Of a stretch of DNA of 64,000 nucleotides, positions 10,232 to 61,091 are shown in pieces (the stretch's first letter is position 1; each line of letters starts with the position of its first letter). The position numbers and the translations under genes were made by a program. The stretch is taken from NCBI RefSeq assembly GCF_034377145.1, contig NZ_CP139707.1, positions 2,864,501 to 2,928,500 of the forward strand. Direction: 5' to 3'. The notes under the pieces are model-generated. The model saw nothing but the letters and a program-made list of their open reading frames with translations. It was not told the origin of the DNA and searched no databases. Source of the stretch: Sulfitobacter sp. OXR-159 (GTDB lineage: Bacteria; Pseudomonadota; Alphaproteobacteria; Rhodobacterales; Rhodobacteraceae).

Positions 10232-12511
10232 TCACCCACACTTACTATGCCCACAGCTCCCACAAGTCATGCACCCCTCGACCATTCGCATGTCGAACTG
10301 GCCGCAAGACGGGCATGACTTGCCACGCGGCGCATCGAGGCCGACGACCTTCGCCTGCGGGTCAGTTTTCAGGCCCATGCCCTCGCCCGCGATGAAGCCG
10401 GTGGCGATCATATGGCGCTCGATCACGCCGCCGATGGCCGCGAGGATGGAGGGGATGTATTTGCCCTGCATCCATGCCCCACCGCGCGGGTCGAAGACAG
10501 CCTTGAGTTCCTCAACCACAAAGGACACGTCACCACCACGGCGGAACACGGCAGAGACCATCCGCGTCAGCGCCACGGTCCAGGCGAAATGCTCCATGTT
10601 CTTGGAGTTGATGAAGACCTCAAAGGGGCGACGGTGGCCGTTCAGCACGATATCGTTGATGGTGATGTAGAGCGCGTGCTCACTGTCGGGCCATTTGACC
10701 TTGTAGGTGTTGCCCTCCAACTCGGCCGGACGGTCCAGCGGGTCGGACATATAGACGATCTCGCCGCCCTCGCTGACCTGATCGGGGCTGTCGGCGGGGG
10801 CCTTGTCGGTCTTCTCCGACGAGACGCTCAGGACCGAACCGGTCACGTCGTTGGGGCGGTAGGTGGTGCAGCCTTTGCAGCCCGTATCCCACGCCTGCAT
10901 ATAGACGTCCTTGAAGGCATCGAAGGAGATATCTTCGGGGCAGTTGATGGTCTTGGAGATCGAACTGTCGATCCATTTCTGCGCCGCGGCCTGCATCTTG
11001 ACGTGGTCGGCGGGTGGCAGAGTCTGGGCGTTGACGAAATAGTCGGGCAGTGGCGTGTCGCCCTTCAACTCGCGCCACATTTGCACGGCGTAGTCGACAA
11101 CCTCTTCCTCGGTCCGGCTGCCGTCTTTCTGCAGCACCTTACGGGTGTAGGCATAGGCAAAGACCGGCTCGATCCCAGAGCTTACGTTGCCCGCATAAAG
11201 GCTGATCGTGCCGGTGGGCGCGATCGAGGTCAGCAGCGCGTTGCGGATGCCGTGTTCGCGGATCGCATCGCGCACATCGTCGTCCATCTGCATCATGGTG
11301 CCGGAGGCGAGGAACTTTTCGGCATCGAAGAGCGGGAAGGCCCCCTTCTCTTTCGCCAGTTCCACGCTCGCCAGATAGGAGGCGCGGGCGATGGCTTTGA
11401 GCCATGCCTCGGTCTGCGCCGCCGCCTCGTCGGAGCCATAGCGCAGGCCGACCATCAAGAGCGCATCGGCAAGGCCGGTGACACCCAGACCGATGCGGCG
11501 CTTGTTCTGCGCCTCAGCGGCCTGTTCGGGCAGCGGGAAGTTCGACACGTCGACGACGTTGTCCATCATGCGGACGGCGGTGGCGACAAGCTCGCTCATC
11601 GCATCTTGGTCAAGATGGGCGTCGTCTTCGAAAGGCTGCGCGACCAGACGCGCGAGGTTGATCGAACCTAGCAGACAGGCGCCATAGGGCGGCAGCGGCT
11701 GCTCGCCACAGGGGTTGGTGGCGGCAATGGTCTCGCAATAGTTCAGGTTGTTGGCGGCGTTGATGCGGTCGATGAAGATCACGCCCGGCTCGGCATAATC
11801 ATAGGTCGCCTGCATGATCTTGTTCCACAGGTCGCGCGCTTGCACGGTCTTATAGACCTTGCCGCCGAAAACGAGGTCCCACGAGCCGTCGGCCTTCACA
11901 GCCTCCATGAAGGGGTCGGTGACCAGCACGGACATGTTGAACATGCGCAAACGCGCGGGGTCGGACTTGGCGGCGATGAAATCCTCTACATCCGGGTGGT
12001 CGCAGCGCATGGTCGCCATCATCGCGCCGCGACGCGAGCCTGCGGACATGATGGTGCGGCACATCGCGTCCCAGACATCCATAAAGGACAGCGGGCCCGA
12101 GGCATCTGCCGATACGCCCAGCACATCCGCGCCGCGTGGACGAATGGTGGAGAAATCATAGCCGATTCCCCCGCCCTGCTGCATGGTCAATGCAGCCTCT
12201 TTCAGCATGTCAAAGATACCCGACATGCTGTCGGGCACGGTGCCCATGACGAAGCAGTTGAACAGGGTCACGCGGCGCGCGGTGCCCGCGCCTGCGGTGA
12301 TGCGGCCAGCGGGGAGGTATTTGAAATCCTCCAGCGCGTTGAAAAACTTGTCTTCCCAAACATCCGCCTTCGATTCGACCTGCGCGAGGTCGCGGGCGAT
12401 ACGGCGCCATGTGTCCTCTACCGTGACGTCCTTGGCGGTGCCATCGGCCCCTTTAAAACGGTATTTCATATCCCAGATTTGTTCGGCGATCGGGGCGGTA
12501 AAGCGGGACAT
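10232..12511 (-). CDS. nrdJ: Adenosylcobalamin-dependent (class II) ribonucleoside-diphosphate reductase
   Basis: A 759-aa protein starting at the ATG at 12511 (MSRFTAPIAEQIWDMKYRF). It reduces ribonucleotides to deoxyribonucleotides using adenosylcobalamin to make the radical, so needs no oxygen and no R2 subunit. Visible are the substrate loop 'MQQGGGIGYDFSTIRPRG', the active-site 'TNPCGEQPL' with the radical Cys and Glu, 'SIAPTGTISL', and the C-terminal redox tail 'CPSCG...CMTCGSCGHSKCG' that re-reduces the active site and binds zinc. Length is normal for the alphaproteobacterial NrdJ type. It is monocistronic, with a strong terminator downstream and NrdR-box-like sites upstream. It ties the cell's DNA synthesis to vitamin B12. 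Confidence 0.96.
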   Translation of the reverse strand: MSRFTAPIAEQIWDMKYRFKGADGTAKDVTVEDTWRRIARDLAQVESKADVWEDKFFNALEDFKYLPAGRITAGAGTARRVTLFNCFVMGTVPDSMSGIFDMLKEAALTMQQGGGIGYDFSTIRPRGADVLGVSADASGPLSFMDVWDAMCRTIMSAGSRRGAMMATMRCDHPDVEDFIAAKSDPARLRMFNMSVLVTDPFMEAVKADGSWDLVFGGKVYKTVQARDLWNKIMQATYDYAEPGVIFIDRINAANNLNYCETIAATNPCGEQPLPPYGACLLGSINLARLVAQPFEDDAHLDQDAMSELVATAVRMMDNVVDVSNFPLPEQAAEAQNKRRIGLGVTGLADALLMVGLRYGSDEAAAQTEAWLKAIARASYLASVELAKEKGAFPLFDAEKFLASGTMMQMDDDVRDAIREHGIRNALLTSIAPTGTISLYAGNVSSGIEPVFAYAYTRKVLQKDGSRTEEEVVDYAVQMWRELKGDTPLPDYFVNAQTLPPADHVKMQAAAQKWIDSSISKTINCPEDISFDAFKDVYMQAWDTGCKGCTTYRPNDVTGSVLSVSSEKTDKAPADSPDQVSEGGEIVYMSDPLDRPAELEGNTYKVKWPDSEHALYITINDIVLNGHRRPFEVFINSKNMEHFAWTVALTRMVSAVFRRGGDVSFVVEELKAVFDPRGGAWMQGKYIPSILAAIGGVIERHMIATGFIAGEGMGLKTDPQAKVVGLDAPRGKSCPSCGQFDMRMVEGCMTCGSCGHSKCG

Positions 12512-12635
12512 ACAACGGTTCCTTTGAGTCGTGAGGGCAGCACGAATGCGACTTAAGAGTTGGCATCGATACAACATGAAGGGCCGATTTCTCAACGCCC
12601 AAAATGCACATCTACGGGAATTTATTCTTCAGTCT

Positions 12636-16946: not shown

Positions 16947-16998
16947 GGGCGCGTCCTCTTTCTAGGGTGTGGGGCGCCCGCCGGACGCCCCGCGTTTA

Positions 16999-18207
16999 TC
17001 AAACGGTGAACCAATCGGATTTCGGCGTGAACAACCCGTCCTCGGGGTTGTAGCCATAGACCCGGCCCGTCCCGATGGCGTTGTTTTCCATGCTCACCGG
17101 CCCACCAAAGAAGCCGCCCGAATCCCAGTCCGAGATCCCCGCCAGCTTCTCGGCGATGTTGTCGGGTGTCAGCTCCAGCCCGGCCTCGGCGGTGTCGCGG
17201 AAGGCCTTCATGGCGATCTCCAGCCCGCACATGGTCTGGATCGCCCATGTCGACATGTAGTTCTCCAGCGGCGTGCCCGCGAACATTTTCTTGCTGAGTT
17301 CGGCGTACTGCTGATAGCGCGGCGCCTCTTCGCGGTCATAGAAATAGCGGTAAGGCATGACGCCCTCATAGCCCGCAAGGAACGGCCCCGCCTCGGCGGT
17401 GATGCGGTCGGCAATCAGCTTCTCCATGCCCCAGAAGGTGCCCTTGAATTTGACCGGCAGACCAAACTGCCGCGCGCCGCCAATAAGCTGCGGCCAGACG
17501 CCAGTGACATAGCCCTGAAGGATACAGTGATCCGCGCCGGACTGCGCCAGTTTGGTGACGTGCGTGGGGATATCCGCGCCTTCGGCCTTGGTGCTTTCCT
17601 CCAGCACGACCTCGAGGCCCAGCTCCTCGGCGGTCTTGCGCCCGTGTTCGATCGGATCGCGGCCAAACTCAGTGTTGGAAAAGATGAAGGCGACCTTCTG
17701 CCCGCCCTCGTTCTTGATGTTCTGCAACAGGATGTCGAACTGGCTTTGATAGGTCGGACCCGAGAGATACTGGTAGGGATGCGTCGCAGGGTCGGCCAGT
17801 TCCGAGGCGAAAGAGGTCGAGCCCATAATCCGGGCGTTCTCGCCCTTCAACTCGGGCGCGATCAGCTTCATCGCCCCCGTACTGTCAGCGAAATAGCCGA
17901 TCATGTTCTTGCCTTCAGAGGCCAGCGCCCGCTGGTAGTTGTTGAGCGCATTCTGCGGCACATAGCCCGAATCCTCGGTGACGAAGCGAATGGGCACCCC
18001 AGCCACCCCGCCCTCGTCGTTGAAAAGCTTCGCGGCCATGGCAAAGGCAGGCGCGACCAACTGACCGGCGGTGGCAAAGGGCCCGGTGAGCGGCAGCGAG
18101 GCGCCGAGCACATACTCCTTGGGCTGGGCGCGCAGGATCATCGGCGTGCCCATGGCCGCCGTCGCGGCGGCGGTGGTGGCGAGGAAGGATCGGCGGTTCA
18201 TGGTCAT
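16999..18207 (-). CDS. ABC transporter substrate-binding protein (LivK/Leu-Ile-Val family)
   Basis: A 402-aa periplasmic binding protein with a twin-arginine-like leader (MNRRSFLATTAAATAAMG) ending near an 'LRAQP' site; either ATG at 18207 or 18201 may start it. The mature part has the type I binding fold: 'LGASLPLTGPFATAGQ', 'VIRFVTEDSGYVP'-like and 'FIFSNTEFGRDPIEHGR' segments. It captures a hydrophobic amino acid or carboxylate and hands it to the LivH/LivM channel. It lies between the permease and livF genes in one leftward operon. Ligand not predictable, but the acyl-CoA synthetase in the operon suggests a carboxylic acid rather than leucine. Confidence 0.9.
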   Translation of the reverse strand: MTMNRRSFLATTAAATAAMGTPMILRAQPKEYVLGASLPLTGPFATAGQLVAPAFAMAAKLFNDEGGVAGVPIRFVTEDSGYVPQNALNNYQRALASEGKNMIGYFADSTGAMKLIAPELKGENARIMGSTSFASELADPATHPYQYLSGPTYQSQFDILLQNIKNEGGQKVAFIFSNTEFGRDPIEHGRKTAEELGLEVVLEESTKAEGADIPTHVTKLAQSGADHCILQGYVTGVWPQLIGGARQFGLPVKFKGTFWGMEKLIADRITAEAGPFLAGYEGVMPYRYFYDREEAPRYQQYAELSKKMFAGTPLENYMSTWAIQTMCGLEIAMKAFRDTAEAGLELTPDNIAEKLAGISDWDSGGFFGGPVSMENNAIGTGRVYGYNPEDGLFTPKSDWFTV

Positions 18208-18240
18208 CTGGTCTTCTCCCTGATGTGGCCTTGTGAATTC

Positions 18241-19311
18241 TTACCCGCGCGCAAACGGCCAACGGTTTGCGGCGCGCAGGATACGGTCGACGATCTGGTT
18301 GATGCCCAAGGGTTCCTTGAGCAGGAACAACACCAGCAGCACGCCGAAGGCGATCTGCTGCAAGGGCGCGCGCAATTGCCCCGCGCCGGCGCTGTCACCC
18401 GCAAGCGCGCCAAAGAGAACTTTGATAAGTTCGGGCACCATCACCACGATGATGACCCCGAAAACCGGCCCCATCGTGCGCCCCATGCCACCGATGATCA
18501 GCGCCGCCACAAGGTTCAGCGACAGCGCCAGTTCGAACTGCTCGGGCAGGATGCGGGCGTAGAAATAGGCGAAAAGCGCCCCCGCCAGACCACAGTACGC
18601 GGCCGAGAGGGCAAAGCTCATCAACTTGTAGCGCAAGAGCGAGATGCCGAGGATCTCGGCAGAATAGTCGCGGTCGCGAATGGCGATGAAGGCACGACCC
18701 ACGCGGGTGCGGATCAAGTTCTGCGCCGCCAGCAGCGACACCAACCCCACCGCCGCAATCAGACCGAACATCTCACGTTTGGTATCCAACTCCCAGCCCA
18801 GCAGATTAGGCACATTGGTATTGATCCCCACCATGCCACCGGTCCAAGGGGCAAAGAGGTCTTCTTCGATCAAAAAGATCACGATGAAATTCGCCGCCAG
18901 CGTCGCCACGGCAAGGTAGAGCCCCTTGACCCGCAGGCTCGGCAGGCCGACCAACACGCCGACCGCCGCCGCCAGCGCCACCGCCAAAGGCACCGAGACG
19001 AAGGGCATTAACCCTGCCGGGATCACCCCGGCGCCGAGGTTACCGAAGATGGTCACCGCATAGGCACCGATGGCGACGAAGGCGCCATGGCCCAGCGAGA
19101 CCAGCCCGGTATAGCCGGTCAGGATGTTGATCCCCACCACGGCGATCAGCAGGATGCCCATCTGGCTGGCAATCAGGATCAGGTAGTCATTGCCGAAGAG
19201 GGTGAAAAGCGCCAGCGCAAGGATCGACCCGTAAACGAAGGCCTGTTTGTAGCGGTTGTTCAGCACCCGCTCATCGGCGGCATAGCTGGATTTGAGATTT
19301 GCGTTGATCAT
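18241..19311 (-). CDS. livM: Branched-chain amino acid-type ABC transporter permease
   Basis: A 356-aa inner-membrane permease. The start is the ATG at 19311 (MINANLKSSYAADERVL), which overlaps the livH stop as ATGA; an upstream extension has no membrane character. About eight to ten hydrophobic helices are visible, with the family motif 'GINILTGYTGLVSLGHGAFVAIGAYA' near residue 60 and 'LRVKGLYLAVATLA' and 'RDRDYSAEILGISLLRYK' in the coupling loop that contacts the ATPases. Heterodimerises with LivH. Central gene of the operon, translationally coupled to livH. Confidence 0.92.
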   Translation of the reverse strand: MINANLKSSYAADERVLNNRYKQAFVYGSILALALFTLFGNDYLILIASQMGILLIAVVGINILTGYTGLVSLGHGAFVAIGAYAVTIFGNLGAGVIPAGLMPFVSVPLAVALAAAVGVLVGLPSLRVKGLYLAVATLAANFIVIFLIEEDLFAPWTGGMVGINTNVPNLLGWELDTKREMFGLIAAVGLVSLLAAQNLIRTRVGRAFIAIRDRDYSAEILGISLLRYKLMSFALSAAYCGLAGALFAYFYARILPEQFELALSLNLVAALIIGGMGRTMGPVFGVIIVVMVPELIKVLFGALAGDSAGAGQLRAPLQQIAFGVLLVLFLLKEPLGINQIVDRILRAANRWPFARG

Positions 19312-20312
19312 ATCCGCTCGACCTCTTTCTGGCCCATCAGCCCGTGCGGGCGCCAGATCAGCACCACCAGCACGGTGACGTAAGGCACGATCTCGGCCCA
19401 GCCGCCGCCCATCTGCCACTGTGTCATCGCCTCAAGCACGCCGACGACCATCGCCGCGATCAGCACGCCGATATAGCTGTCGAGCCCGCCCATCAGCACG
19501 ATCGCCAGCACCGAAAAACCAAAGAGACCAAGGCTCGGTGAAATGCCGTTGCGGGTGGCGAGGATTGCCCCCGCGATGGCCCCTGTGGTGCTGGCCAGCA
19601 CCCAAGCGCGGGAGAAGACCTTGGGCACTGAAATACCCATCGAATAGGCGGTCGACTGGTCCTCGGCGGTGGCGCGGATGGCAATGCCGCCCTTGGTGAA
19701 CTTCACGAAGGCGACGATGCCACCGAAAAGCAGCAGGGCCACGACCATGTTCACCAGATCAGTGCCAAAGAGGAAGATCATCGTGCCGAACAACTCGAAC
19801 CGGATCGGCATGTTGGGCGCGATATAGGGCACGCTTGCCGCATCCGCCGTCCAGATCAACTGCGCCGCGCCCGACAGGATCGAGATCAGGCCAACCGTGA
19901 CCATGATCATCGCAAAAATAGATTGCCCCATCAGCGGGCGCATCAATACCCGCTCGATGATCCGGCCCAGAATGGCGTTGCAGACCAGCGCCCCCGCCAG
20001 CCCCAACAGGATGCGCGGCAGGTTCGCCACCCAATCAAGCACCGCCGCCACGGGCGAAAACATCGGCAGTTCGCCCCGCATTTCGACCATCCAGCCCGGC
20101 TGCCAAGAGGCGAGCCAAGCAGGCGCCCAAGGCTGGCCCGGGACGATCACGGCGAAGGTGAAGTAGAAATAGGCCCCGAACATGATCAGATAACCATGGG
20201 CGAAGTTCACCACCTTGGTCGCCTTGTAAACGCTGACGATCCCCACGGCGATCAGCGCGTAGATCGCTCCGGCCATCAGCCCGTTGATCGCGAATTGCAC
20301 GAACTGCCCCAT
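19308..20312 (-). CDS. livH: Branched-chain amino acid-type ABC transporter permease
   Basis: A permease of about 334 aa. The ATG at 20312 (MGQFVQFAINGLMAGAIYAL) is preferred; a TTG three bases earlier is possible. It has the LivH hallmark 'YALIAVGIVSVYKATKVVNFAHG' in the first helices, a periplasmic insertion around residues 60-90 that is longer than in E. coli LivH, and 'RATAEDQSTAYSMGISVPKV' as the ATPase-coupling loop. Ends overlapping livM (ATGA). The gap before it holds two small hairpins. Works with LivM as the channel of the importer. Confidence 0.92.
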   Translation of the reverse strand: MGQFVQFAINGLMAGAIYALIAVGIVSVYKATKVVNFAHGYLIMFGAYFYFTFAVIVPGQPWAPAWLASWQPGWMVEMRGELPMFSPVAAVLDWVANLPRILLGLAGALVCNAILGRIIERVLMRPLMGQSIFAMIMVTVGLISILSGAAQLIWTADAASVPYIAPNMPIRFELFGTMIFLFGTDLVNMVVALLLFGGIVAFVKFTKGGIAIRATAEDQSTAYSMGISVPKVFSRAWVLASTTGAIAGAILATRNGISPSLGLFGFSVLAIVLMGGLDSYIGVLIAAMVVGVLEAMTQWQMGGGWAEIVPYVTVLVVLIWRPHGLMGQKEVERI

Positions 20313-53657: not shown

Positions 53658-54464
53658 TCAGACCCGCCAGCTCAGCACGCGCCGTTCCACGAAGGCCACC
53701 ACCGCAGACACCGCCACGCCCAGCAGCGACAGGATCACCACACCCGCAAACAGACGCTCCAAATCATACAGGCTCCCCGCCTGCAAAATATACGCCCCGA
53801 TCCCATATTCCGCGCCCAGCATCTCAGCCGCCACCAACAGAATAATCGCAATCGTCAGCGAAATCCGCAGCCCCGAGAGGATCCCCGGCATCGCGCCGGG
53901 CACCACGATTTTCGAAACAATCGACCACCAACCGAGGCCGAAACTCTGCCCCATCCGGATCAACACCCGGTCCACATTGTCGACCGCCGCATAGGTGGCG
54001 ACCACCGTGGGCGTGAAGGTGCCAAAGGCGATGAGCGCGTATTTACTCGCCTCATCAATGCCAAACCAGATCACAAACAGCGGCAGCAGCGCAATCTTGG
54101 GGATGGGGAAAATCGCTGCCACCAGCGGCACCAGACCCGCGCGGGCCAGAGAAAACAGCCCGATCAGCACCCCAATCCCGATCCCCAGCGAGGCACCGAT
54201 CAGCGCGCCTACGGCCAGTCGGGTCAGCGAGGGGCCGAGGTGTTTGAACAACAACCCCGACTGGTAAAGCTCTTGAAACGTTAGCAACACATCGCTGGGC
54301 CGAGGCAACGTCAGGGCCGAGATAAAGCCGCTGCGCGTGCCCCATTCCGCCAGCAGGATCAGCACAACGAAGACTGCAAGCCCCACGCCGCGCCGCGTGC
54401 CGGGCTGGAAGCCACCGCCGCGAAAGGTTACTTCGCGGGCATTCACATCCGTCGTTTCAGCCAT
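53658..54464 (-). CDS. ABC transporter permease (TauC/SsuC type)
   Basis: A 268-aa inner-membrane permease of the nitrate/taurine/sulfonate class. About six hydrophobic helices; the coupling motif is 'AIFPIPKIALLPLFVIWFGI' followed by 'EASKYALIAFGTFTPTVVAT', typical of SsuC/TauC. The end 'ILSLLGVAVSAVVAFVERRVL' is also family-like. Its start overlaps the ATPase stop by 8 bp. Works with the ATPase at 54457 and the binding protein at 56743. Confidence 0.92.
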   Translation of the reverse strand: MAETTDVNAREVTFRGGGFQPGTRRGVGLAVFVVLILLAEWGTRSGFISALTLPRPSDVLLTFQELYQSGLLFKHLGPSLTRLAVGALIGASLGIGIGVLIGLFSLARAGLVPLVAAIFPIPKIALLPLFVIWFGIDEASKYALIAFGTFTPTVVATYAAVDNVDRVLIRMGQSFGLGWWSIVSKIVVPGAMPGILSGLRISLTIAIILLVAAEMLGAEYGIGAYILQAGSLYDLERLFAGVVILSLLGVAVSAVVAFVERRVLSWRV

Positions 54465-55224
54465 CGATCAACTCCGCATCCGCCGCCGCGGCCTCATCGC
54501 GCATCAGCCCCCATAGGTGCTGTTGCTGCGCCTCCAACGCCGGGTCGCCATGGCGACGCTCGGCCAGCGGCATGTCTAGGTTCACCACCTCGCGCAATTC
54601 ACCCGGACGGCGCGAGAGCACGACGATCTTATGCCCCAACCGCACCGCTTCAGCGAGGTTGTGGGTCACATAGACCGCCGTGAACGGCTGCCGCGTCCAG
54701 AGCGCCACAAGGTCGTCCATCAAAAGCTCGCGGGTCTGGCTGTCGAGCGCGCTCAGCGGCTCGTCCATCAGCATCACCGCCGGATTCACCGCCAGCGCAC
54801 GGGCAATCGCCACGCGCTGTTTCATGCCGCCCGAAAGCTGTTTGGGCAGCGCATCGGCGAAATCGGTCAATTTGGTCCGCGCCAGCACATCGGCGATGAT
54901 CGCCTCACGCTGCGCCTTACCCAGCCCGTGATCCTCAAGCACCAGCGCCACATTGCCGCGCACCGTGCGCCACGGCAGCAGCGCGAAATCCTGAAAGATA
55001 TAGGTCAGTGGGTTCAAACAGCCCTCAGGCGCATCGCCCATTTGCAGCACGCGGCCTTCGCTGGGCCGCTCCAACCCACCGAGCATGCGCAGCAGGGTGG
55101 ATTTGCCACAGCCGGAGGGGCCAACGATGCAAACGATCTGGCCAGAGGGAATATCGAGCGTGATGTCACGCAGCACTTGGGTATCGCCATAATAATGGCA
55201 GACGGAGGAAAGCTTGAGGTCCAT
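54457..55224 (-). CDS. ABC transporter ATP-binding protein (TauB/SsuB type)
   Basis: A 255-aa ATPase; start at the ATG at 55224 (MDLKLSSVCHYYGDTQVLRD), just ahead of the first ABC strand. Walker A 'GPSGCGKSTLLRMLGG', signature 'LSGGMKQRVAIARALAVNP', Walker B 'VMLMDEPLSALD' and the switch His 'AVYVTHNLAEAVRLGHK' are intact. A 'YIFQDFALLPWRTV' Q-loop marks the nitrate/sulfonate importer group. It follows the antiporter gene by 81 bp. Confidence 0.93.
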   Translation of the reverse strand: MDLKLSSVCHYYGDTQVLRDITLDIPSGQIVCIVGPSGCGKSTLLRMLGGLERPSEGRVLQMGDAPEGCLNPLTYIFQDFALLPWRTVRGNVALVLEDHGLGKAQREAIIADVLARTKLTDFADALPKQLSGGMKQRVAIARALAVNPAVMLMDEPLSALDSQTRELLMDDLVALWTRQPFTAVYVTHNLAEAVRLGHKIVVLSRRPGELREVVNLDMPLAERRHGDPALEAQQQHLWGLMRDEAAAADAELIDG

Positions 55225-55305
55225 GCCGCCCTTTTCCGGCAAAAACGCCCCGCGCGCAATGTGCGATCCGCGTCCCGGCGCAACCGCCCTGCGCCGGTGG
55301 CGCGC

Positions 55306-56565
55306 TTAGGGCTGCTCACCCTCTTTACGGCTCAGGCCGTCCACCGCGATCCCGGCGGTAAAACCATGCACCAAGGTCGACACGAGGATCGCAAAACCCA
55401 CCATCGCCCAAAGCGGCTCTTCGTCCAGAAACTCCACCTTCCCCGCCGCATAGGCAAGGTAGTAGATCGACCCGATCCCCCGGATCCCATAAAGCGCCAC
55501 AACCCAGCGGGGGCGCGTCTCTAGCGAGGTTCCCAAAAGCGACAGCCACCCGGCCAAGGGGCGCACGACAAAGATCAGCGCCAGCACGATCACCGCACCG
55601 GCGAGGGTCAGATCAGCCAGCAAGGCAGGCAGCACCGCGCCAATCGCCACCAGCAGCAGCGCCGTTAGGGCGTGTTCAACAGCAGCGGTGAAATCATGCA
55701 AGCGGCGGTGGAATTCGTGGTCCGCCTCAACCCGCCGGATCACCAGACCGGCCACCGCCACGGCGATGAAACCATAGCCTTCGACTAATTCCGTGGTGCC
55801 ATAGCACAAGAGCACCCCGGCCAAAGCCACCACGCCCGAAGATGTCTCGGCCAGAACCGCCTTGCGCGGCACGGCGAACAACACCTGCCCCAAGGCCCAA
55901 CCGCCCGCAGCACCCATCGCGGTGCCGACAGCGATGCGCCAAAAGACATCGCGCGCCAGCCATTCCACGCCCCAAGTCGCCGGGGCCAAGCCTTCGGCCG
56001 CGACCAGAAGACCAAGGTAGACGAAGGGGAAGGCCAAACCATCGTTCAGCGCCGCCTCTGTGGTCAGGGCGAAACGCACCGGATGTTCGCCCCCTTCCTG
56101 CGGCGGGCCGACTTGCACATCGGCGGCCAGAACCGGATCGGTCGGGGCCATCACCGCGCCCAGCAAGATCGCCCCCGCTGCTGTCATCCCGGCAAAGGCC
56201 CAGCCCATCACGGCGACCGACAGGATCGTCAGTGGCATGGTCAGCGCCAACAACCGCGCCGTTGGGCCCCAGCGGGACCAATCAGAAAGCCTGTCGATCC
56301 GCAGCCCCGTCGCGAAGAGCGCGACGATCACGCAAAGCTCCGACACGATTTCCCATGGAAAGGGGGTGGCGCGCGGGTCGGGGAAACTCGGCATGCCGGG
56401 AACAAGGGCGAAAACGCCCATCCCCAAAAGGATCAGCAGCCCCGAGGCCGCAGGCTCTCGCCGACTGAAAAAGCGGGGCAGCCAATGGGCAAGGATCACC
56501 ACGGCCCCAACGGCCCCCAAGGCGAAATGATAGCCGTTCAGGGCGAAAAAACTGCCGTCGCTCAC
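55306..56565 (-). CDS. Cation:proton antiporter (CPA1/NhaP type)
   Basis: A 419-aa protein with about twelve hydrophobic helices. The exchanger motif 'GAVMAPTDPVLAADVQVG' carries the paired D-P region of CPA1 antiporters, and 'TTEAALNDGLAFPFVYLG' has the ND motif of the ion site. Later segments 'WVVALYGIRGIGSIYYLAYA' fit the C-terminal core. It exchanges Na+ or K+ for H+ at the inner membrane. It is embedded between the binding protein and the ATPase of one ABC importer, beside the dehalogenase; a role in removing protons made during dehalogenation is an inference. Confidence 0.9.
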   Translation of the reverse strand: MSDGSFFALNGYHFALGAVGAVVILAHWLPRFFSRREPAASGLLILLGMGVFALVPGMPSFPDPRATPFPWEIVSELCVIVALFATGLRIDRLSDWSRWGPTARLLALTMPLTILSVAVMGWAFAGMTAAGAILLGAVMAPTDPVLAADVQVGPPQEGGEHPVRFALTTEAALNDGLAFPFVYLGLLVAAEGLAPATWGVEWLARDVFWRIAVGTAMGAAGGWALGQVLFAVPRKAVLAETSSGVVALAGVLLCYGTTELVEGYGFIAVAVAGLVIRRVEADHEFHRRLHDFTAAVEHALTALLLVAIGAVLPALLADLTLAGAVIVLALIFVVRPLAGWLSLLGTSLETRPRWVVALYGIRGIGSIYYLAYAAGKVEFLDEEPLWAMVGFAILVSTLVHGFTAGIAVDGLSRKEGEQP

Positions 56566-57869: not shown

Positions 57870-57885
57870 TGGCATCGATTTGCCA
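57870..57885. promoter_or_regulatory. Palindrome over the dehalogenase start codon
   Basis: TGGCA-N6-TGCCA (57870-57885) reaches the A of the dehalogenase ATG, and a second TGGCATC lies 20 bp upstream at 57850. The pair looks like an operator in the divergent promoter region of the importer and dehalogenase. No regulator gene lies next to it, so the assignment is tentative. Confidence 0.35.
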
Positions 57886-60800
57886 TGAAGCTCTTTTCAT
57901 CCAAGTCCCGCCCTATGCACCTCGGCCCCTTCCCGTTGGAGCGGCTGCGCCGGTTGCATGCCCCGCATGACCAACTGCCGGACACGCCCATCCCGGTGTT
58001 GCGGTTTGAGCGGCCCGAGACGCCGCAGAGCATCTGCAACGCCATGGCGCCCTTTCAGGCGATGATGGACGTGCTTCGGGATGGGCCGATCAACACCGCA
58101 GGCGCGGTGATCCCCGACAGCCCGGTGGAACGCGCCAACCACCTCAAATCCTTCGGTTATTACAACGATGCCTCGATGATGGGCGTCTGCGCCCTTCCGC
58201 AAGAGGCTCGGCTGCCCACCCCGCGCCGAAGCGAGGGCACCGCGCAGCTGGCCGATGACCTGCGCAGCCGCCAGACCAAGTCGCTCGCTGCCGGGGTCGA
58301 TGTCATCATGGCGAACCTGCGCGATGCGGTGGACGCCCCCGAAACCGCGATTGACAGTCACAGCCACGCGCTGGTGATCCTCACCGCCTACCCCCGTGAC
58401 CCGCGCGCGGGTGAGCCGGGTAGCGATTGGATCATCGACGCCCAAGCCGAGCGCGCCTGCCTACGCGGGACCGAGAACGCCACCGTGCTGGCCGAATACA
58501 TCCGTCAATTGGGCTTCGCCGCCAAGGTGCATTCCGCCACCACCGCCGATGTGAACCTCGGCCAACTGGCCGTGGCGGCGGGGCTGGCGGTTTGGGAAGA
58601 CGGTAGGCTGCAAGCGCCGTGGATCGGTCCACGCTTCGGATTGGCCGTGGTGACGACTGACATGGAGCTTGCGCCCGATATGCCGCTCGCTCCGCTCTCC
58701 GAACAACCGTGGTCGGTGCTCAAAGGCCCGCATTGGCAGCTGGGCACCCATGGCGGGGTCAGCGCCCGCGATGTCGATCCTTATGCCCGGCGCGACTATG
58801 CCGCAGGGCCGCATCCGTTTGAGACGCTGAAACGGGTGGACGAGCCGACCACCTATATCGACGCGCCCAACGTGCCGCGCGTGCCGAAACGCGGCGATCT
58901 TTTCGCACGCGGGCAGTTCGGCGACATGGGGCCAAAGGTGCAGAACGCCATGAAAGGCGGGCACCATGTGGTGAAATCCGCCCCCTCCGCCGCGCAGCGC
59001 CGCCTGCTGGGCGCGCTGATCTTGCTGCAAGACGGGCCGGTGAACGATGCCGCCCCTGCGATGACAGACAGCGCCCGCAATGCCGCCAACCTCAAGGCGG
59101 CAAGCTATTTTCTGGGGTCCGATGCTGCGGGTCTCTCGGCCTGCCCCGATTGGACGTGGTACAGCCATGACGCCACCGGCACCCCGATCACCCCGCCGCA
59201 TAACCAAGCGCTGAGCCTTATCATCGACCAAGGCTTTGACACGATGGAGGGGTCTTCGGGCGATGATTGGATCGCCGTGTCGCAATCCATGCGGGCCTAT
59301 CTGCGGTTTTCAATGTTGGGCGGCGTGATGGCGCAGCACCTGCGCAACCTTGGCCATTCCGCCAAAGCGCATACGGTGATGGATGGCGACGTACTGCAAC
59401 CGCCGCTCTTGCTGCTCGCGGGCTTGGGCGAAGTCTCTCGCATCGGCGAAGTGATCCTCAATCCCTTCCTCGGCCCGCGCCTGAAATCCGGCGTGGTCAC
59501 CACCACCCTGCCCGTTACCCATGAAAAGCCCATCGACTTTGGCCTGCAAAAGTTCTGCGAAGCCTGCAACAAATGCGCCCGCGAATGCCCCTCGGGGGCG
59601 ATCACCGCCGGGCCGAAGAAGATGTTCAACGGCTATGAAATCTGGAAATCCGACAGCCAGAAATGCGCCACCTACCGGATCACCAACCAAGGCGGCGCGA
59701 TGTGCGGACGCTGCATGAAGACCTGCCCGTGGAACCTTGAAGGGCTGTTCGCCGAGGCCCCCTTCCGCTGGGCCGCCTCCAACATCCCCGCCGCCGCACC
59801 GCTGCTGGCCAAGCTGGATGACAAGGTCGGCAAGGGCCGTCTGAACCCGGTCAAAAAGTGGTGGTGGGACATCGAGCGCAAACCCTCGGGCCAGTTCGAC
59901 ACGCCTGCCCAGCCGGTGAACGCCCGTGATCTGCAACCCGATCTGGATCTCAAGTTCGAGGACCAAACCCTCTCCGTCTACCCCGCCCCGCTGGCCCCGC
60001 ACCCATGGCCTTACCCCGATCCGATGAACCGCGAGGCCGGGATTGCCGCCCATGCGGCCCTGCTGAGCGCCGTTGAGCACCGCCGCAAGACTGCAGCGGG
60101 CGAGACGGATCATTTGCATCTTTATAAAGTCGGCAGCGGCACCCCCGTGCTTGACCTGCGCATCACCGAAGTTACTCGTCTGAACGCGACCACGGCGCTT
60201 TATGACATCGCCCACCCCGAAGGCCACGACCTGCCCGCATGGACCGCGGGCGCGCATCTTGATCTGGTCGTCGCCCCCGAATTCCTGCGCCCCTATTCCC
60301 TGCTGGGTGATCCGAGTGACCGCAAACGCTACCGCATCGCCGTGCTCCGCGAGGACGCGGGCCGGGGCGGCTCGGCGCTGCTGCACCGGGTCTTCACCAA
60401 AGGGCGGCGCATCTTTGTCGGCAAGCCGGTGAACCATTTTGAACTGGTAGAGGACGCGCCGCATAGCCTGCTCATGGGCGGCGGCATTGGTATCACGCCG
60501 ATGATCGCCTTTGCCCATCGCCTGCACGCCCTTGGGCGGCCCTTTGACCTGCACTACTCGGCCTCTGACCGCGAAGCCGCCGCCTTTGCCGAAGAACTGG
60601 CGCAGGCTCCTTGGGCCGACCGGGTGCACCTGCATATCTCGTCTGAGAGCACCCGCGCCGACCTGCCCGCCATCATGGAACGCAGCGCACCGGGCACCCA
60701 TGTCTACACCTGCGGAGCCGATGCCTATATGCAATCTGTCATGGCCGCAGCCGAAGCCGCGGGCATCCCCGAAGACGCGCGGCATCTGGAATATTTCTTA

Positions 60801-61091
60801 ACCCCCGAGGTGCCGGACTACGTCAATCACCCCTTCACGCTGAAACTCACCTCAGGCCGCGAGATCGCCGTCTCTGCCGAGGAAACAGCCGCCGACGCGC
60901 TGATCGCGGCGGGGGTGCCAGTGGATCTGAAATGCAGCGATGGCATCTGCGGCGTCTGCAAATGCGGCCTGCGCGGCGGCGAAGTCGAACACCGCGACTT
61001 CGTGCTCTCCGCTAAACAGCGCGAAGGCGCGATCATCCTCTGCCAATCCCGCGCAGCCCAGCCGGGTGGTGTGCTGGAACTCGACCTCTAA
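57885..61091 (+). CDS. Self-sufficient catabolic reductive dehalogenase (RdhA-reductase-ferredoxin fusion)
   Basis: A 1068-aa three-part enzyme. Residues 1 to about 700 are the cobalamin RdhA module; it has two [4Fe-4S] clusters, C558-x2-C561-x2-C564-x3-C568-P and C594-x12-C607-x2-C610-x3-C614-P. About 750-960 is a phthalate-dioxygenase-reductase-like module with flavin motif RPYSL (802) and nucleotide motif GGGIGITPM (865). The end is a plant-type [2Fe-2S] ferredoxin, C1017-x4-C1022-x2-C1025-x27-C1053. There is no Tat signal and no RdhB anchor, so it is cytosolic, unlike respiratory dehalogenases. It would remove halogen from a small aromatic using NAD(P)H. ATG at 57885; a second at 57915 is possible. 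Homologues are known in marine rhodobacteria and Comamonas. Confidence 0.93.
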   Translation: MKLFSSKSRPMHLGPFPLERLRRLHAPHDQLPDTPIPVLRFERPETPQSICNAMAPFQAMMDVLRDGPINTAGAVIPDSPVERANHLKSFGYYNDASMMGVCALPQEARLPTPRRSEGTAQLADDLRSRQTKSLAAGVDVIMANLRDAVDAPETAIDSHSHALVILTAYPRDPRAGEPGSDWIIDAQAERACLRGTENATVLAEYIRQLGFAAKVHSATTADVNLGQLAVAAGLAVWEDGRLQAPWIGPRFGLAVVTTDMELAPDMPLAPLSEQPWSVLKGPHWQLGTHGGVSARDVDPYARRDYAAGPHPFETLKRVDEPTTYIDAPNVPRVPKRGDLFARGQFGDMGPKVQNAMKGGHHVVKSAPSAAQRRLLGALILLQDGPVNDAAPAMTDSARNAANLKAASYFLGSDAAGLSACPDWTWYSHDATGTPITPPHNQALSLIIDQGFDTMEGSSGDDWIAVSQSMRAYLRFSMLGGVMAQHLRNLGHSAKAHTVMDGDVLQPPLLLLAGLGEVSRIGEVILNPFLGPRLKSGVVTTTLPVTHEKPIDFGLQKFCEACNKCARECPSGAITAGPKKMFNGYEIWKSDSQKCATYRITNQGGAMCGRCMKTCPWNLEGLFAEAPFRWAASNIPAAAPLLAKLDDKVGKGRLNPVKKWWWDIERKPSGQFDTPAQPVNARDLQPDLDLKFEDQTLSVYPAPLAPHPWPYPDPMNREAGIAAHAALLSAVEHRRKTAAGETDHLHLYKVGSGTPVLDLRITEVTRLNATTALYDIAHPEGHDLPAWTAGAHLDLVVAPEFLRPYSLLGDPSDRKRYRIAVLREDAGRGGSALLHRVFTKGRRIFVGKPVNHFELVEDAPHSLLMGGGIGITPMIAFAHRLHALGRPFDLHYSASDREAAAFAEELAQAPWADRVHLHISSESTRADLPAIMERSAPGTHVYTCGADAYMQSVMAAAEAAGIPEDARHLEYFLTPEVPDYVNHPFTLKLTSGREIAVSAEETAADALIAAGVPVDLKCSDGICGVCKCGLRGGEVEHRDFVLSAKQREGAIILCQSRAAQPGGVLELDL

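Follow-up and report, generated by a model that had tools for sequence, protein, structure and literature searches.

The self-sufficient reductive dehalogenase design, in which an RdhA core, a reductase and a ferredoxin share one chain, has already been published with JtRdhA from Jhaorihella thermophila, and a single gene of this kind in Sulfitobacter is no surprise after it. Here we describe such a gene from Sulfitobacter sp. OXR-159. It lies in a window of 64,000 nucleotides, the whole stretch of DNA analysed (C1:2864501-2928500), within a genome of 4.42 Mb. A first-pass annotation had read the gene from the sequence alone as a soluble dehalogenase of a design known from a few enzymes. Based on sequence and on analogy with characterised relatives, it is highly probable that the product is a self-sufficient catabolic reductive dehalogenase of the BhbA/JtRdhA type that works in the cytosol, draws on NAD(P)H and acts on ortho-bromo- and ortho-iodophenols.

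JtRdhA is active in air with 1:1 coupling to NADPH, carries an insert relative to NpRdhA, and debrominates or deiodinates bromo- and iodophenols, with 3,5-dibromo-4-hydroxybenzoate as the best substrate tested (PMC10463259). The tested chloro-compounds merely inhibited this nearest characterised enzyme (PMC10463259), which speaks against the dechlorination that the first-pass annotation had included. The Sulfitobacter protein resembles J. thermophila P0076 in length, domain order, insert and catalytic residues, with 66% identity across the full protein, but P0076 has A357 and Y362 at the pocket mouth where the Sulfitobacter protein has M356 and H361. We take P0076 to be JtRdhA on the strength of its species and design.

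Other relatives are more distant, with core identity falling from 68% for the Jhaorihella protein to 51% for BhbA and 43% for NpRdhA. BhbA of Comamonas sp. 7D-2 (plasmid pBHB, locus L090) has the same fusion, the insert and the catalytic residues at ~50% identity. However, its gene is carried on an IncP plasmid typed as conjugative, with genes for protocatechuate 4,5-dioxygenase, insertion sequence (IS) elements and a TTT-type binding protein nearby, whereas the Sulfitobacter gene has rpe and an unlinked ATP-binding cassette (ABC) importer as its neighbours on a large contig. NpRdhA of Nitratireductor pacificus (4RAS, 6ZXU), the top PDB match, shares the duplicated RdhA fold and the catalytic residues but lacks both the fused reductase/ferredoxin and the insert. 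PceA (4UQU, 8Q4H) has the core and two [4Fe-4S] motifs in common with the Sulfitobacter protein, at 32-37% identity over ~180 residues. PceA-type enzymes are respiratory and exported and are not known to carry a fused reductase.

A further study describes Ros_A3X954 from Roseobacter sp. MED193, compared here by description rather than by sequence (PMC13101508). It too is a marine roseobacter dehalogenase without a Tat signal and debrominates 2,6-dibromophenol, but is reported as highly oxygen-sensitive, its activity being lost in air (PMC13101508). As its cluster motifs lie at residues 283-345, its layout differs from that of the fusion. Oxygen tolerance of the Sulfitobacter enzyme is not certain because this related marine enzyme is inactivated by air. 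The same study, citing Chen et al., states that BhbA homologues are widely distributed across the Roseobacter clade (PMC13101508).

Domain layout and enzyme class

The open reading frame (ORF) runs from ATG to TAA and encodes 1068 amino acids. Its ratio of nonsynonymous to synonymous substitution rates (dN/dS) was 0.061, 0.070 and 0.058 against the copies in L003, L004 and L133, and 0.129 against a more distant relative, L005. Five of the seven intended pairs yielded values (L132 is the same as L004 in sequence, and neither L006 nor L128 was extracted). The ratios imply a genuine reading frame maintained by purifying selection, and we regard the ORF as a confirmed gene, an observation far beyond chance. 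Its features are as follows:

57885..61091, forward strand: whole RdhA-reductase-ferredoxin fusion (profile, PDB, alignment and fold evidence)
57885..58874, forward strand: N-terminal half, ~residues 1-330, a degenerate second copy of the RdhA domain that lacks the cluster cysteines
58212..58352, forward strand: insert of ~45 residues, ~residues 110-156, found by alignment in the Jhaorihella protein and BhbA and not in NpRdhA
58875..59990, forward strand: catalytic RdhA half, ~residues 331-702, with F340, S468, M469, Y472, K534 and R598 corresponding to F291, S422, M423, Y426, K488 and R552 of NpRdhA
59556..59726, forward strand: two [4Fe-4S] motifs, Cys 558/561/564/568 and 594/607/610/614 (Pfam, cysteine positions)
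60150..60809, forward strand: FMN/NAD(P)H reductase module of the phthalate dioxygenase reductase type, ~residues 756-975 (Pfam, NCBIfam, PDB, motifs and fold)
60834..61088, forward strand: plant-type [2Fe-2S] ferredoxin domain, ~residues 984-1068, Cys 1017/1022/1025/1053 (Pfam, cysteine positions)

The NCBIfam profile TIGR02486 (RDH) matched the protein in two separate stretches, with 197.6 bits against a cut-off of 160.35; in a six-frame search of the genome these stretches scored singly at 152.1 and 44.4 bits, both under the cut-off. The N-terminal half is a degenerate RdhA copy, as seen from the double profile match and from the alignment of the catalytic half with each half of NpRdhA. Pfam placed a 4Fe-4S double-cluster domain at residues 558-617, a reductase-type DmmA-like_N domain at 851-964 (33.1 bits, cut-off 33) and Fer2 at 990-1057. 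Against the PDB, residues 1-109 and 157-745 matched NpRdhA (4ras, E 5e-160) and residues 758-1065 matched phthalate dioxygenase reductase (2pia, E 9e-49), in agreement with the flavin/NAD(P)H reductase and [2Fe-2S] ferredoxin that had been predicted. All eight [4Fe-4S] cysteines fall where the first-pass annotation had placed them, and the four cysteines of the ferredoxin region are consistent with a [2Fe-2S] domain. The motifs RPYSL at residue 802 and GGGIGITP at 865 are presumably the FMN and pyridine-nucleotide motifs.

The predicted absence of a Tat signal and membrane anchor was borne out as well. No membrane segment was found among 19-residue windows (maximum Kyte-Doolittle hydropathy 1.42), nor a Tat-like hydrophobic N-terminus in the first 60 residues (maximum -0.17). 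Directly on either side of the gene there is no space for rdhB, which was not searched for in the rest of the genome. An AlphaFold2 model built from 45 sequences had a mean predicted local distance difference test (pLDDT) score of 72.5. When it was searched with Foldseek, NpRdhA chains filled ranks 1-14 (template modelling score by target 0.80-0.81, root-mean-square deviation 5.5-6.3), followed by two self-sufficient P450 fusions and 2pia, which are reductases of the phthalate dioxygenase reductase type.

Two other enzyme classes were weighed against this assignment. Epoxyqueuosine reductase (QueG) belongs to the same class III B12/two-[4Fe-4S] superfamily and its profile, TIGR00276, did match the fusion weakly, but with 19.4 bits against a cut-off of 200 and against 198 bits for RDH. 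In a tree of the core, the protein grouped with GAI101, JtRdhA, an R. pomeroyi protein, BhbA, OM-1 and NpRdhA at 100% ultrafast bootstrap, leaving outside both PceA (as two segments) and the QueG-type protein of the host; the tree rests on a short alignment and the inner position of NpRdhA is unsupported (43%). The grouping with QueG that the first-pass annotation had named as one result that would refute its assignment was therefore not observed. With a separate QueG-type gene elsewhere in the host genome (L089) and the catalytic Tyr, Lys and Arg of NpRdhA kept, a QueG-like or other reductase lacking dehalogenase activity is very improbable. Still harder to credit is a respiratory, energy-conserving enzyme. 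Such an enzyme would have the RdhA catalytic core in common, and PceA aligned to the catalytic half at E 4e-30, but the N-terminus, the lack of a transmembrane segment, the missing room for an adjacent rdhB and an NAD(P)H reductase fused in the same chain all argue against it.

Judged by its sequence, the protein is a clear member of the self-sufficient catabolic RdhA-PDOR enzymes of the BhbA/JtRdhA type. The profile search and the alignments with NpRdhA, BhbA and the Jhaorihella protein that the first-pass annotation had proposed both favoured RdhA. Overall, its account of the enzyme class, fusion design, solubility, host type and relatives (~50% identity to BhbA, 66% to the Jhaorihella protein) held, whereas its views on rarity, on halo-hydroxybenzoates as a carbon source and on dechlorination found no support in the form given.

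The direct basis for this reading in our analysis is homology, domain order, conserved catalytic residues and purifying selection. Its chemistry, electron source and preference for bromine and iodine would be those of the characterised relatives, from which they are carried over. By analogy with JtRdhA, electrons would pass from NAD(P)H through FMN, the [2Fe-2S] cluster and the two [4Fe-4S] clusters to cobalamin. A phenol brominated or iodinated in the ortho position would be bound through its hydroxyl at S468, K534 and R598, the halogen sitting on cobalt; Y472 (with K534) would donate the proton, and halide and dehalogenated phenol would be released. The enzyme very probably removes bromine or iodine from phenol-like compounds at the expense of cellular NAD(P)H, and in the host natural halophenols may thereby be rendered harmless or edible.

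Active site and distribution among relatives

The NpRdhA residues for substrate binding and proton donation are described in PMC7565698. In our alignment, its catalytic Y426, K488, R552 and S422 are conserved as Y472, K534, R598 and S468. These residues were also compared in an alignment and tree of 109 rows, representing 100 distinct sequences. The rows comprise six reference proteins, the query and 102 extracted copies, after removal of any copy that was broken or did not fit the start pattern. F340, S468, M469, Y472, K534 and R598 were invariant in 109/109 rows, query included. Other pocket positions changed between NpRdhA and the query, namely F290 to L339, K307 to M356, F310 to H361, P311 to V362, A419 to V465 and N452 to V498.

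The nearest named relative of the protein, at 96%, is from Sulfitobacter dubius, in keeping with the marine alphaproteobacterial host deduced from the sequence. Searching with residues 1-702 of the query at E <= 1e-50 recovered relatives in 53/62 Sulfitobacter genomes, including 50 of the 56 of high quality. At family level a relative was present in 151 of 394 genomes, which span 393 genera, so relatives are numerous rather than the few that had been supposed. Broader searches returned 424 matching stretches of genome contigs, the best 80 being kept; some of the others may match the reductase alone. A protein search gave 3059 relatives from 7998 scored candidates, with 120 listed, and many of the 3059 may match through the reductase alone. 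In some Sulfitobacter the dehalogenase gene at the same site is split or interrupted (L116, L117 and L118, and also L014 and L019), which may reflect either pseudogenes or sequencing errors.

Sulfitobacter copies fell into two lineages. Type A copies are 73-97% identical to the query over the core and adjoin rpe, or lie one gene away, in loci reaching that far. Type B copies are 63-65% identical over the core and are located away from the rpe site. Type A was monophyletic with support of 1.0 (29 rows, 21 of them distinct because some genomes were fetched twice), and the type B group (12 distinct sequences) also takes in a Jannaschia copy (L093); the other relatives make up 67 distinct sequences. 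In a tree of rpe with mostly weak bootstraps, genomes lacking the gene appeared in two places amid gene-bearing ones. The two lineages differ at the pocket mouth: M356 and H361 occur in 21/21 distinct type A sequences, in contrast to Ala and Tyr in 12/12 of type B, and the other relatives carry Ala in 61/67 and Tyr in 63/67. In NpRdhA these columns correspond to K307 and F310, which lie at the substrate entrance or close to it; the structural equivalence is tentative because of a two-residue gap in the alignment there.

Locus and neighbouring genes

The gap between the dehalogenase gene and the divergent ORF upstream is 92 bp, and the ATG of rpe lies 67 bp downstream. The upstream order is a divergent gene for an NMT1/SsuA-like binding protein, a CPA1 antiporter gene, and then the genes for an ABC ATPase and permease. 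At E <= 0.001 the sole PDB match of the binding protein was a putative exported protein (3qsl, E 8e-7). We considered whether this divergent ABC importer could be a transporter dedicated to halophenols and rejected the idea. The binding protein was present at the site in 12 of 18 type A loci (L116-L133) and in four of six loci lacking the gene (L134-L139, where rpe was found, as it was in 6/9 gene-lacking genomes); flanks in the latter are short (1.5 kb), making absence there weaker than presence. It was found within ~6 kb in 0/22 type B loci (L094-L115), and in L135 its start is separated from rpe by ~145 bp that contain no dehalogenase gene. As it is equally frequent at the site with and without the dehalogenase gene, the importer is not a dedicated partner.

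The CPA1-type Na+/H+ antiporter (55306-56565, reverse strand) sits inside the ABC cluster only in the query and in L003, L004, L014, L116, L117, L132 and L133 among the loci examined; other Sulfitobacter loci have the same cluster without it. A role as an acid or halide handler was rejected as well, since its restriction to the nearest relatives places it outside the system. No cobalamin riboswitch was found in the window at the gathering threshold. Neighbours of the dehalogenase gene differ in other genera, and with a simple ORF caller we found no operon partner common across genera, leaving out L025, L069 and L076, which had no RDH in the cluster.

In many Ruegeria loci (L022, L030 and others), the dehalogenase is followed by genes that by eye resemble molybdenum hydroxylases of the CO-dehydrogenase/xanthine-dehydrogenase type. 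A sulfatase gene (PF00884, L035:6273-8000) adjoins the dehalogenase in Aliiroseovarius, with members of the same cluster nearby in L013 and L015; this pairing is of possible interest because marine bromophenols can occur as sulfate esters. Elsewhere in the window, a second B12 user, an adenosylcobalamin-dependent ribonucleotide reductase (TIGR02504, 587 bits), is encoded at 10232-12595 on the reverse strand. For a 680-residue ORF at 16969-19011 on the forward strand, which is possibly not a gene, Pfam gave no match at E <= 1e-10. AT skew peaks in the 2-kb blocks 18001-20000 (0.21) and 54001-56000 (0.23).

Physiological role

Given the probable enzyme class, we considered what the dehalogenated product might be used for. 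CobN was found in the host genome. So was HmgA, with 659 bits, clustered with fumarylacetoacetase (FahA) and an FAD-dependent hydroxylase-like gene. PobA reached at best 30.4 bits there against a cut-off of 538.7, and PcaH had no match; protocatechuate 4,5-dioxygenase was not searched. Among the 394 family genomes, hmgA was present in 133/151 with the dehalogenase gene versus 135/243 without (odds ratio (OR) 5.91, p 3e-12), pcaH in 100/151 versus 138/243 (OR 1.49, p 0.07) and the control paaA in 105/151 versus 88/243 (OR 4.02, p 2e-10). In a joint logistic model the OR was 3.8 for hmgA, 2.5 for paaA and 0.99 for pcaH. Stratified by paaA, the hmgA effect was not significant in positive genomes (p 0.13) but was so in negative ones (OR 4.7, p 2e-5). 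These statistics cover hmgA, pcaH and paaA and take no account of shared ancestry or genome size. A link between the dehalogenase gene and homogentisate is suggested, its signal shared with a lifestyle marker. For pcaH, the OR of 1.5, or 0.99 jointly, gives no sign of a link to protocatechuate 3,4-cleavage. It is more likely, we infer, that the product enters central metabolism via homogentisate than via protocatechuate. In the open-licence literature we found no paper on genus-wide distribution in Sulfitobacter or on a homogentisate link of a reductive dehalogenase.

These results bear unequally on three accounts of the gene's purpose. Growth on bromophenols or halo-hydroxybenzoates via 4-hydroxybenzoate and protocatechuate has precedents on the plasmids of Comamonas 7D-2 and Nitratireductor OM-1, where annotated genes for protocatechuate dioxygenase, joined in OM-1 by pobA, lie close to relatives of ~50% identity. 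It would also suit the top tested JtRdhA substrate, 3,5-dibromo-4-hydroxybenzoate (PMC10463259). However, there is no catabolic cluster at the Sulfitobacter locus, neither PobA nor PcaH was found in the host (pobA having been searched in this genome only, and the 4,5-dioxygenase nowhere), and pcaH does not track the gene, so we consider this route unlikely. The halo-hydroxybenzoates proposed as a carbon source in the first-pass annotation fare poorly on the same grounds; marine bromophenols are still possible substrates. Detoxification, in which halogens are removed from harmful algal or microbial bromophenols and the products are not necessarily used, is a realistic if tentative alternative. 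Bromophenols are abundant in the sea (PMC13101508), and the gene is near genus-wide without a partner common to several genera. On the other hand, no consistently linked regulator or efflux gene was seen, and E. coli W carrying JtRdhA grows on 3-bromo-4-hydroxyphenylacetate (PMC10463259), which makes carbon gain feasible. More doubtfully, the main substrates of the type A clade may be halogenated phenols derived from tyrosine (products of 3-bromo- or 3-iodo-tyrosine such as 3-halo-4-hydroxyphenylacetate or -pyruvate) rather than pollutants or halo-hydroxybenzoates, with the enzyme as a standing step upstream of the homogentisate route.

Several observations weigh against the reading of the gene as a catabolic dehalogenase of ortho-bromo- and ortho-iodophenols, or against its proposed setting. 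The structural model is weak in the Fe-S region, with pLDDT below 50 at residues 553-570 and 574-619. The clade-fixed M356 and H361 near the pocket mouth could mean an altered substrate range. Split copies occur in 3 of the 53 positive Sulfitobacter genomes (G008, G015, G018), and nine of 62 had no match, three of the nine being <=88% complete, including G026, which is labelled as the same species; the gene therefore seems dispensable. Finally, the homogentisate link is confounded by lifestyle because the control paaA also co-occurs.

Taken as a catabolic dehalogenase of the BhbA/JtRdhA type, the gene suggests that NAD(P)H-driven use of the RdhA fold is near-standard across a common marine genus and widespread in the family to which it belongs. 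Provided that the copies are active, ordinary heterotrophs would be directly involved in marine bromine and iodine cycling, a role testable in culturable Sulfitobacter strains. Were the tyrosine-derived substrates correct, aerobic debromination and deiodination would be shared by nearly the whole genus and not be an uncommon means of dealing with xenobiotics. We consider the ecological interest of the finding to be moderate.

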